From Nitrososphaerota archaeon (lineage in GTDB: Archaea > Thermoproteota > Nitrososphaeria > Nitrososphaerales > Nitrosopumilaceae): DNA of 53,406 nucleotides. Position numbers and translations under genes: made by a program. Positions within the stretch are counted from its first letter, which is position 1. Each line of letters begins with the position of its first letter. Below are positions 34,654 to 37,413 of this stretch, in pieces. A model generated the notes under the pieces. It did not search any database, was not told the DNA's origin, and saw nothing but the letters and a program-made list of their open reading frames with translations. Where the stretch lies: contig JAGWHQ010000010.1 in NCBI GenBank assembly GCA_028866655.1, positions 1 to 53,406 on the forward strand. The letters are read 5' to 3'.

Positions 34654-35979
34654 CTAGCCTAATCCCATCTTTCTGAGCATGCCTTGCATTTGGCGTCCCT
34701 TGGAAGCTTTCATCATGGTTTTAGAGTTCTTGTACGCCTTGAGAAGTTCTTTCACTTCATGTTCTGGCCAACCAGAACCTCTTGCTATTCTTTTCACTCG
34801 AGATGCATTTATCAAATCAGGATCAGACTTCTCATCCTTTGTCATTGACTGGATGATATAGCGCCATTTTTCCATGCGTTGCTCTTGTTGTTCAACTTGA
34901 TCTTCTTTTACCATTCCAGAAAAGCCTGGCATGTTCTCCAAGATGTTGCGCAGTCCTCCGGCCTTTGTTGCTTCTTCAATTTGAAAATAGAAATCCTCCA
35001 TATTCATTTTGCCGTGTGAAATTCTCTTTAGTCTATCTTCATTACCTTCTGTCTCCAGTCTTTTTGCCATGTCAAGTAATGCTTGAATATCTCCCATGCC
35101 AAGCATCCTTCCAACAAATCTAGTAGGAGAGAATTTTTCAAGATCATCAATTCGCTCACCTGTTCCAATGTACATTATTTGTGCACCAGTAGCAGCAGCT
35201 GCTGCAAGGGCACCTCCGCCTTTTGCACTGCTGTCCAATTTTGTTATTATGATTCCACCTACTGGAACTGTCTTGTGAAATGCTTCTGCTTGGTTATAGC
35301 ACTGTTGTCCAATTGTTCCATCAATTATCAATAATGCAAGATCAGGATTTGCAACGGCACCAATTCTAGTCATTTCCTCAAGAAGATCTTTTTCTTCCTT
35401 GTGTCTTCCTGCAGTATCTATTAGAATGATATCAAAATTTTGTCCCTCAAAATGTTTTAGGCCATTTTTTACAATTTCAGGCGAGTCCTTGTTCCCTTCC
35501 TCACCATATACCTCTACGTTTGTTTTCTCACACATTGTTTTGAGTTGTGTGAGTGCACCAGGTCTATACGTATCAGCACCAACAACTGCAACTCTATACC
35601 CTTGTCTTGTCAAAAGTTTTGCAAGCTTTGAGGTTACTGTAGTCTTTCCACTGCCTTGTATTCCAAGCATCAAAACCTTGTTTACCTTACCAGGCTGGAA
35701 GACATATTGTTCTTCAGTGCCAAGAAGTTTTGAGAGCTCTTCGTATAGAATCTTTACAATGTGATCTTTTCTAGACAATCCAGGCGGAGGAGTCTCCTTG
35801 ACTGAGCGTTCCTCAAGATTCTTTGTTATTTGAAAGACAAGTTTTACATTCACATCAGATTGTAACAGTGCTCTTTGGATGTCTTTTGAGAGTTCCTTGA
35901 TGAGACCTTCATCAACTGCAGAAGAGTTTACTATTTTCTTTAGTGCAGCTCTAAGACCAGTCTTTAAGCCATCTAGCAT
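34654..35979 (-). CDS. srp54: signal recognition particle protein SRP54
   Basis: The 441-residue protein has the N domain, the GTPase G domain (GIQGSGKTTVTSKLAKLLTR, DTAGRHKEE, TKLDSSAKGGGALAAA) and a Met-rich M domain (MPGFSGMVKE, GSGWPEHEVKELLKAYKNSK, MMKASKGRQMQGMLRKMG). It binds signal sequences and SRP RNA and brings ribosomes to the membrane. It is in an operon with dph6 upstream (TAATG overlap). SRP19 is encoded about 7 kb away at 42105. Confidence 0.96.
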   Translation of the reverse strand: MLDGLKTGLRAALKKIVNSSAVDEGLIKELSKDIQRALLQSDVNVKLVFQITKNLEERSVKETPPPGLSRKDHIVKILYEELSKLLGTEEQYVFQPGKVNKVLMLGIQGSGKTTVTSKLAKLLTRQGYRVAVVGADTYRPGALTQLKTMCEKTNVEVYGEEGNKDSPEIVKNGLKHFEGQNFDIILIDTAGRHKEEKDLLEEMTRIGAVANPDLALLIIDGTIGQQCYNQAEAFHKTVPVGGIIITKLDSSAKGGGALAAAAATGAQIMYIGTGERIDDLEKFSPTRFVGRMLGMGDIQALLDMAKRLETEGNEDRLKRISHGKMNMEDFYFQIEEATKAGGLRNILENMPGFSGMVKEDQVEQQEQRMEKWRYIIQSMTKDEKSDPDLINASRVKRIARGSGWPEHEVKELLKAYKNSKTMMKASKGRQMQGMLRKMGLG

Positions 35980-36686
35980 TACTTTTCTAAAACGGCCTCG
36001 GTTATTTCAAATCTTCCTCTATAGCCATCCCAGATCTTGTTTGCTTTTATTATTTTAATTGGAGAATAAAACAACGGACAGTCAATCACAAAGGTTTCAG
36101 CCTCTCCACCCTCAAAAGCCAAGTTAAAACCATACTTGATAGATAATTTTTCAAGTTGTTCCACGTCGTCTTTTGTTATCTCTTTTCCGAGCCATGTTTG
36201 ATTTAGTCCTGCAGACATTACACTTGTCACAATGAATTTGAATTTAGATTCTAGTAATTCTTGCAAATATTTTTTTTGATCAATATGCCACAGCGGCGAT
36301 ATTATTTCGAGACCCAGATTATTTCCAATTCTATCAAAACGTATCTTCTGGTAATCACTAAACAATCCACCATGAACAATCCCATTTATCCCAAAATCTT
36401 TTTTTGCCCTCTCCAACAAATTTTGTAATGCATCCAGTTCAGATTCAGGATTAGTTGTATCAATTTGAGATACAATTTGAGGTATTTTCATTGCTTTGGC
36501 CTGCAACGCTGTAGATGAAATGTTTGGATAGTGCAAAAGATGACTCTCTTCTGATTGTGGAACCATAGAAACAAGACATGAAACATCATGGCCTTGGCTC
36601 TTGACTTTGTAAATAGCATAGGTACTATCCTTTCCGCCTGAAAAAAGAGACGCTAGTTTCAACAAGCTCACAACATTTCCAATCAA
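35979..36686 (-). CDS. dph6: diphthine-ammonia ligase (Dph6 family)
   Basis: The PP-loop ATPase signature LASLFSGGKDSTYAIYKV lies near the N terminus. The C-terminal half has VHGGLFSDYQKIR, PLWHIDQKKYL, AGLNQTWLGKEI and FEGGEAETFVIDCP, the set that defines the MJ0570/Dph6 family. The enzyme amidates diphthine to diphthamide on elongation factor 2. The start is uncertain: TTG 36686 directly follows the stop of the upstream mini-gene, and GTG 36671 is also possible. SRP54 and aIF5A are neighbours, a translation-linked group. Confidence 0.9.
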   Translation of the reverse strand: MIGNVVSLLKLASLFSGGKDSTYAIYKVKSQGHDVSCLVSMVPQSEESHLLHYPNISSTALQAKAMKIPQIVSQIDTTNPESELDALQNLLERAKKDFGINGIVHGGLFSDYQKIRFDRIGNNLGLEIISPLWHIDQKKYLQELLESKFKFIVTSVMSAGLNQTWLGKEITKDDVEQLEKLSIKYGFNLAFEGGEAETFVIDCPLFYSPIKIIKANKIWDGYRGRFEITEAVLEK

Positions 36687-36800
36687 TTAATTTTTTTCTA
36701 GTTCAGTCACACGTTTTAGGCAGTCTTGGCACAGGGCAAGATTATCCTTCAGTGTTGTCTCCACATTAGATGCCAGACAAACATGACATAGGCCTTTCAT
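36687..36800 (-). CDS. double-CxxC mini-protein, 37 aa
   Basis: The ATG frame encodes MKGLCHVCLASNVETTLKDN, then LALCQDCLKRVTELEKN. Two CxxC pairs 16 residues apart form a complete zinc ribbon or knuckle. The TAA stop is immediately followed by the TTG start of dph6, indicating translational coupling. The gene is below most annotation length limits. Function unknown; perhaps an accessory to Dph6 or to the ribosome. Confidence 0.65.
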   Translation of the reverse strand: MKGLCHVCLASNVETTLKDNLALCQDCLKRVTELEKN

Positions 36801-36850
36801 GTTTTATCAATACAGTTGTATTGTATAAACTGGTACTAATGAAAAGCCGA

Positions 36851-36916
36851 AGATGCTTCAATACTCATAATCTTCATCATAAAGTCAGTTGGCTTTTCTA
36901 GTCATCATCAGCATCT
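36851..36916 (-). ncRNA. C/D box sRNA; guide matches the elongator tRNA-Met anticodon loop (C34)
   Basis: On the minus strand, a 66-base RNA reads: stem AGATGCT, C box ATGATGA (36902-36908), guide CTAGAAAAGCCAA, D' box CTGA (36885-36888), spacer CTTT, C' box ATGATGA (36874-36880), guide AGATTATGAGTA (36862-36873), D box TTGA (36858-36861), closing stem AGCATCT. The 7-bp terminal stem is perfect. The second guide is complementary to TACTCATAATCT, i.e. a CUCAUAA anticodon loop; the fifth base from the D box pairs with C34 of the CAU anticodon. C34 2'-O-methylation of elongator tRNA-Met by C/D RNPs is known in archaea. The D box is TTGA instead of CTGA. It begins 4 bases after the aIF5A stop. 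Confidence 0.85.
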
Positions 36917-36920
36917 ATGA

Positions 36921-37328
36921 TTAACTTTTGATTCTTACTATAATAGTTCTATCCATGACTTTCCAGTATTCAACATCAACGCCTTGCAAAACTTTTTCCT
37001 TTATTTCATCTTCAATTTGTTGTGCGTCAAAGACTTCAAACGTTTCAGAGTCCATGATTTGTACACTGGTTGGAGTTTTTGAAATTATAGAACCCACTCT
37101 TTTATCAATGAGAGGAACTTGAACTTGAGCGCTTACAGGTGAGACGTGAGAATATTTTTTCTTGTCAAATATTCCGACTCCGACAATTCTTGCTTTAGCT
37201 GCACCGTGTTTTCCTGGTTTACTTGTATCATATTCAACTATTTTGCATGGCTCCTCATTTGGACCGCTTACTGGAAGCAATATGTAGGAACCAATTTTTA
37301 GTGCACCAAGCTCAGACGGCTTACTCAT
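36921..37328 (-). CDS. eif5a: translation factor aIF5A
   Basis: The 135-residue protein is a complete archaeal IF5A. The N-terminal SH3-like domain has the modification loop EYDTSKPGKHGAAKARIV, with K40 the site of hypusine or deoxyhypusine. The C-terminal OB domain follows (GSIISKTPTSVQIMDSETFE). It helps ribosomes through difficult peptide bonds. ATG 37328 (MSKPSELGALKIGSYILLPV) is chosen over a TTG two codons upstream. A C/D box sRNA lies right after its stop, probably processed from the same transcript. Confidence 0.95.
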   Translation of the reverse strand: MSKPSELGALKIGSYILLPVSGPNEEPCKIVEYDTSKPGKHGAAKARIVGVGIFDKKKYSHVSPVSAQVQVPLIDKRVGSIISKTPTSVQIMDSETFEVFDAQQIEDEIKEKVLQGVDVEYWKVMDRTIIVRIKS

Positions 37329-37413
37329 CACCAAAACAGAATTTAGCAGAGTATATAACTTTTCTATTATTAGATTTACAATTTGATCTCTTGAAATGAA
37401 TTTGCCAAAAACT

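Follow-up and report, generated by a model that had tools for sequence, protein, structure and literature searches.

We consider it highly likely that a short region of the window (the whole stretch of DNA analysed, 53,406 nucleotides of a Nitrosotalea-like MAG) encodes a dual-guide archaeal C/D box sRNA, with C34 of elongator tRNA-Met and C2510 of 23S rRNA as its targets and a probable TATA promoter of its own. The nearest named loci belong to Ca. Nitrosotalea. In the proposed mechanism the D guide would pair with bases A31 to U41 in the anticodon arm of elongator tRNA-Met and put C34 in the N+5 position relative to the D box, and an L7Ae/Nop5/fibrillarin particle would 2'-O-methylate this base, with a possible effect on decoding by the tRNA or on its protection. 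The D' guide would pair with domain V of 23S rRNA beside the peptidyl-transferase centre and position C2510 for 2'-O-methylation, and the sRNA would probably be transcribed from its own TATA promoter within the last codons of aIF5A.

Read on the minus strand from 36916 to 36851, the sRNA is AGATGCT-G-ATGATGA-CTAGAAAAGCCAA-CTGA-CTTT-ATGATGA-AGATTATGAGTA-TTGA-AGCATCT (Table 1). All four C/D sRNA boxes (RUGAUGA and CUGA type) are present together with a 7-bp k-turn-forming stem, and the original prediction of this stem, of C, D', C' and D boxes and of guides of 13 and 12 nt was correct to the base, as was its 4-base gap between the aIF5A stop codon (36921-36923) and the stem. Beside the D and D' boxes lie guides of about 10-13 nt that are complementary to tRNA or rRNA, with the target base at N+5. 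A three-base bulge (GAT) is followed by the C and D boxes, in exact k-turn geometry apart from the first base of D, which is U: the box is TTGA compared to the consensus CTGA, and UUGA would make G-U the first pair of the k-turn.

Table 1. Positions and basis of assignment of the sRNA, its parts and the neighbouring features in the window
Feature	Position	Strand	Basis or remark
C/D box sRNA, 66 nt stem to stem	36851..36916	(-)	Sequence; model R1; homologues at aIF5A loci
Terminal stem, 5' strand AGATGCT	36910..36916	(-)	Partner of 36851-36857; compensatory changes, all 7 pairs
C box ATGATGA	36902..36908	(-)	Sequence; invariant or nearly so in A1
D' guide CTAGAAAAGCCAA	36889..36901	(-)	Positions 3-10 (GAAAAGCC) pair with 23S GGCUUUUC; N+5 = C2510
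D' box CTGA	36885..36888	(-)	Sequence; conserved
C' box ATGATGA	36874..36880	(-)	Sequence; conserved
D guide AGATTATGAGTA	36862..36873	(-)	Pairs with elongator (pre-)tRNA-Met UACUCAUAAUCU; N+5 = C34
D box TTGA	36858..36861	(-)	Sequence; xTGA directly 5' of the stem in all aligned relatives
Terminal stem, 3' strand AGCATCT	36851..36857	(-)	Same basis as the 5' strand
3' flank GGCTTTTC	36841..36848	(-)	Reverse complement of the D' guide core; mimics the 23S target
TATA-like element ACTATTATA	36939..36947	(-)	-31..-23 from the sRNA, within aIF5A codons Thr-Ile-Ile; position matches ACTAAAATA in relatives
aIF5A gene	36921..37334	(-)	Upstream neighbour; Pfam IF5A-like_N 3.3e-18; ORF
37-aa zinc-ribbon-like ORF (MKGLCHVCLASN...)	36687..36800	(-)	Between sRNA and Dph6; relatives at L146, L149, L155, L156, L202
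Diphthamide synthase-type ATP-pyrophosphatase (Dph6-like)	35979..36686	(-)	Pfam Diphthami_syn_2 1.1e-59

The covariance model R1 detected the sRNA in its own genome with E = 5e-21 and in 304 of the 400 genomes of the class, a few weak matches among the 304 having other guides. Within the same family 206 of the 221 listed genomes gave a match, and other families were also represented. Stem, boxes and both guides were kept in 42 of 43 aIF5A loci; the D'-C' spacer varied freely in length and sequence, while boxes and guide cores were constant. Compensatory conservation in relatives had been proposed as a check of the prediction, and compensatory changes were found in all 7 pairs of the terminal stem across the class, with 97.5 % of cells paired and two-sided changes in 69 cells compared to 13 in shuffles, none of 500 shuffles being as high. 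Based on the class-wide matches and the stem covariation, the sRNA is far from chance.

The original prediction directed the D guide at C34 of elongator tRNA-Met. The elongator tRNA-Met gene of the same genome, the only one found there, lies at G000:C93:12195-12288 (-); its precursor contains TACTCATAATCT and is complementary to the D guide over 12 of 12 bases, with C34 opposite the fifth base before the D box (N+5). The runner-up among the 30 tRNAs of the genome was the initiator tRNA, with a run of 7 compared to 12, and it is the C34 of elongator, not initiator, tRNA-Met that is placed at N+5, as in Cm34 guides of the sR-tMet type. rRNA was rejected as a target of this guide (run of at most 6). 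Guide and target are conserved together: the guide core GATTATGAG is kept among relatives, and the same target arm of the tRNA is present in every one of the 33 Nitrosotalea-type genomes that gave a match and in 18 more of the family that belong to other genera. A pattern search did not find the contiguous tRNA-Met target in Nitrososphaeraceae.

The tRNA-Met precursor reads ...CCAG-TCCACACAAAAGGGTAAT-ACTCATAATCTGG..., the middle part being an intron. As the intronless homologue L215 (genome G059) reads CCAG-ACTCATAATCTGG, the best position for the intron is between 30 and 31, with A31 then paired to U39; ARAGORN placed it elsewhere. The placement relies on the intronless homologue because no convincing bulge-helix-bulge fold was predicted for the precursor. 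With the intron at 30/31, the whole 11-nt target A31-U41 lies on the 3' exon and should therefore be readable before or after splicing, and splicing would thus be neither required nor harmful. Only guide position 1 changes its partner, from the last U of the intron in the precursor to G30 in the spliced tRNA. A preference for the pre-tRNA based on this position was considered and dropped, since the base at position 1 differs freely between relatives and is paired in only some of the genomes.

The target of the second guide had been left as unknown, with the form TTGGCTTTTCTAG. At full length this form was rejected: its best near-match lies outside 23S, and the GGCTTTTC part alone pairs. The tRNAs of the genome were likewise rejected as targets of the D' guide (run of at most 6). 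The 16S and 23S genes are absent from the MAG assembly, and the D' target was therefore read from the 23S of relatives. When the 23S and 16S of N. devanaterra were scanned with the guide core GAAAAGCC, the best contiguous match was 23S GGCUUUUC. The match GUCGGCUUUUCCC is at position 2612 of this 23S, where N+5 is the C of GGC and the target is GUCGGC/UUUUCC (slash after the methylation-site C). In the guide of the window, positions 3-10 (8 contiguous bases) and position 1 are paired, and position 2 is mismatched. The target base, placed by the invariant GAUGUCGGCU, is what we take to be C2510 in E. coli numbering. Yeast snR73 guides Cm2959, and this site and human 28S Cm4506 are presumably both equivalent to the predicted D' target, C2510 of E. 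coli. The human site is guided by SNORD35A (PMC8393311).

Comparison between families further supports this assignment. All 23S matches in f1, the family of the window, read GGCTTTTCC, and those in all other families GGCTCTTCC. The D' guide is GAAAAGCC or GGAAAAGCC in genomes of f1; in f3, f18, f21, f22 and others it is GGAAGAGCC. The resulting pairs are GGAAAAGCC with UUUU in the family of the window and GGAAGAGCC with UCUU elsewhere. The D' guide and its predicted 23S target have changed together between families, and it is this co-variation, along with the best rRNA match, that assigns the second guide to C2510.

The D' half is retained at loci where the D half differs (L169, L180, L185 and L176), and the two halves therefore appear to evolve as modules. 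Among weak matches from other families (L176, L178, L179, L181, L182 and L186), a D guide GATCTTGAG replaces GATTATGAG; this guide would fit C34 of tRNA-Leu(CAA). The L176 RNA combines it with the same D' guide for 23S C2510, which suggests swapping of the tRNA half. At L188 (genome G146) the D' guide is retained and the D guide is replaced by CTCAATTTTGT, and it is possible that the tRNA-Met target has been lost or changed in one genus. A second likely C/D sRNA was observed in the genome of the window (G000:C3:10190-10221 (+), locus L125), with boxes and a short stem, GCAG/CTGC; its D guide pairs at 13 of 16 positions with 23S UUACCCCAGGGAUAAC.

The original prediction also held that the sRNA is processed from the aIF5A transcript. 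The two are on the same strand, the sRNA follows the aIF5A stop by 4-16 nt in Nitrosotalea-type loci, and according to a review most archaeal C/D sRNAs have no promoter of their own and come from longer transcripts (PMC7994747). Nevertheless, we find it unlikely that the aIF5A mRNA, through processing, is the sole source of the sRNA and that ACTAAAATA is mere aIF5A coding sequence. A TATA-like box is centred near -26 of the sRNA, in the last aIF5A codons, and in f1 genera without a directly adjacent aIF5A, ACTAAAATA at -30..-22 is all that the otherwise unrelated upstream sequences have in common. Over 11 loci without adjacent aIF5A, an information peak extends from -29 to -22, with little elsewhere. 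The region from about -30 to -22 is the usual place of the archaeal TATA box. Where aIF5A is adjacent, the element forms the codons Thr-Lys-Ile (ACT AAA ATA), or ACT ATT ATA in Nitrosotalea and in the window. Non-adjacent aIF5A genes of the family have codons there other than exact ACT AAA ATA (0 of 7, compared to 9 of 15 adjacent genes; Fisher p = 0.017, indicative only, as the genomes are related, and obtained with L084 left out). At L084 no sRNA follows, yet ACT AAA ATA is present, and counting it would give 1 of 8. Apparent remnants of an aIF5A C-terminus (TKIMRIKG at L199 and TKIMQITS at L196, each ending at a stop) precede the sRNA at two loci where the rest of the gene was not found; they look like a fossil aIF5A C-terminus kept as the sRNA promoter, which also speaks against processing as the only source. 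Because the TATA-like element stays in position where unrelated DNA replaces aIF5A, a promoter of its own is indicated. The sRNA most likely has such a promoter, to which read-through from aIF5A may add, and we prefer this reading to processing from the aIF5A transcript.

The distance between the D guide and the D box is not the same at all loci. In one Nitrosotalea subclade (L065-L069, L075, L076, L079, L080 and L087) the D spacer is 13 nt, the guide lies one base further from the D box and strict N+5 would be U33; at L081 and L082 the spacer is 11 nt and strict N+5 would be A35. The tRNA-Met target is unchanged in these loci where it was found. Spacers of two lengths facing the same tRNA would be expected if the D guide were functional with a relaxed register, with U33 or A35 methylated in some lineages, or if it acted as a tRNA chaperone only. 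The exact C34 register in the window and in nearly all other genera makes this quite unlikely, and a guide for methylation of C34 is the reading that we retain.

The order aIF5A-sRNA-Dph6 on one strand is common across the genera of f1, the Dph6-like gene is downstream of the sRNA in most genera, and in f21 and f22 the sRNA is directly 5' of Dph6. The order of aIF5A, sRNA and diphthamide synthase is old and common. The zinc-ribbon-like ORF was seen in Nitrosotalea-type genera only, with its own TATA-like TTATAC upstream in relatives. In many genomes 20-60 nt separate the stretch from the start of the Dph6-like gene, and L7Ae k-turn control of mRNAs has been reported in archaea (PMC5539422). 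Even so, a conserved regulatory element of the aIF5A or diphthamide-synthase mRNA (e.g. an L7Ae-binding k-turn leader) with no free guide is a very improbable reading of the stretch: no part of it is better conserved than the two guides, which follow their targets and would be superfluous in a k-turn leader, and neither neighbour was detected at Nitrososphaeraceae loci such as L163, L166 and L170.

Just behind the stem of the sRNA, GGCTTTTC or a close variant is found in most Nitrosotalea-type loci (L046-L088), and it is absent in most other genera. The 3' flank of the window, TCGGCTTTTC, agrees with 23S at 10 of 10 positions, and the exact GGCTTTTC flank has a shuffle p of about 0.0005-0.005 per locus. 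Judged by its sequence, the flank could serve as a terminator, as a decoy or in precursor pairing, all of which are possible. In a wider and more speculative interpretation, which we put forward tentatively and would not expect to hold in full, the locus would be an ancient translation-modification island, in which aIF5A, the dual tRNA/rRNA guide and diphthamide synthase have been together since early in the class, the promoter in the last aIF5A codons and the protein constrain each other, and GGCTTTTC acts in cis in some lineages to control how the sRNA matures or how active it is.

In Rfam 15 only sub-threshold C/D matches were found: the best had 24 bits with a gathering threshold of 41, sR41 had 23.4 bits with a threshold of 54, and the range for sR41, sR2 and sR3 was 17.8-23.4 bits compared to thresholds of 41-54. 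The archaeal C/D sRNAs sR41, sR2 and sR3 share the box architecture of the window sRNA but differ in their guides. In agreement with what the original prediction gave as known, Cm34 of elongator tRNA-Met made by C/D RNPs is described for Haloferax, Pyrococcus and human (PMC4033218, PMC7994747, PMC6601510). The sR-tMet of Haloferax volcanii (Joardar et al. 2011, as cited in PMC4033218 and PMC6601510) is, when compared by its description, from another lineage, and the RNA of the window is distinguished by the intron at 30/31 of its target tRNA and by a second guide directed at 23S. In Pyrococcus a C/D sRNA targets tRNA-Met at its wobble base (D'Orval et al. 2001, according to the summary in PMC7994747), and both it and the window sRNA aim at anticodon position 34. 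The tRNA-targeting sRNAs of Pyrobaculum use one guide, the other having no target (PMC7994747), whereas the other guide of the window sRNA has a conserved 23S target. Human SNORD97/SCARNA97 are C/D guides for Cm34 of elongator tRNA-Met(CAU) (PMC6601510); these guides are eukaryotic and are likened to the window sRNA by target alone. A literature search found no paper on C/D sRNAs of Nitrosopumilales; seven small RNA genes are named, with no further description, in the paper on the N. devanaterra genome (PMC4836417). A motif scan of a few stretches of the genome gave no match to C/D proteins, which says nothing of the whole genome. As far as Rfam and the literature found show, three features are new: the class-wide thaumarchaeal family, its combination of a tRNA target with one in 23S, and the probable promoter within the aIF5A reading frame.

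C/D sRNAs have been described mostly in hyperthermophiles and haloarchaea. The present sRNA is kept across ammonia-oxidising archaea, nearly all from moderate environments, and both of its guides could be assigned: one to the decoding letter of the methionine tRNA and the other to a spot beside the catalytic centre of the ribosome. The assignments predict Cm34 in tRNA-Met and Cm2510 in 23S rRNA for cultured Nitrosotalea, Nitrosopumilus and Nitrososphaera, and a coding sequence that doubles as a promoter is a further testable claim. A single RNA would combine an rRNA guide with a tRNA guide, and some families appear to have swapped the tRNA half while retaining the 23S half.
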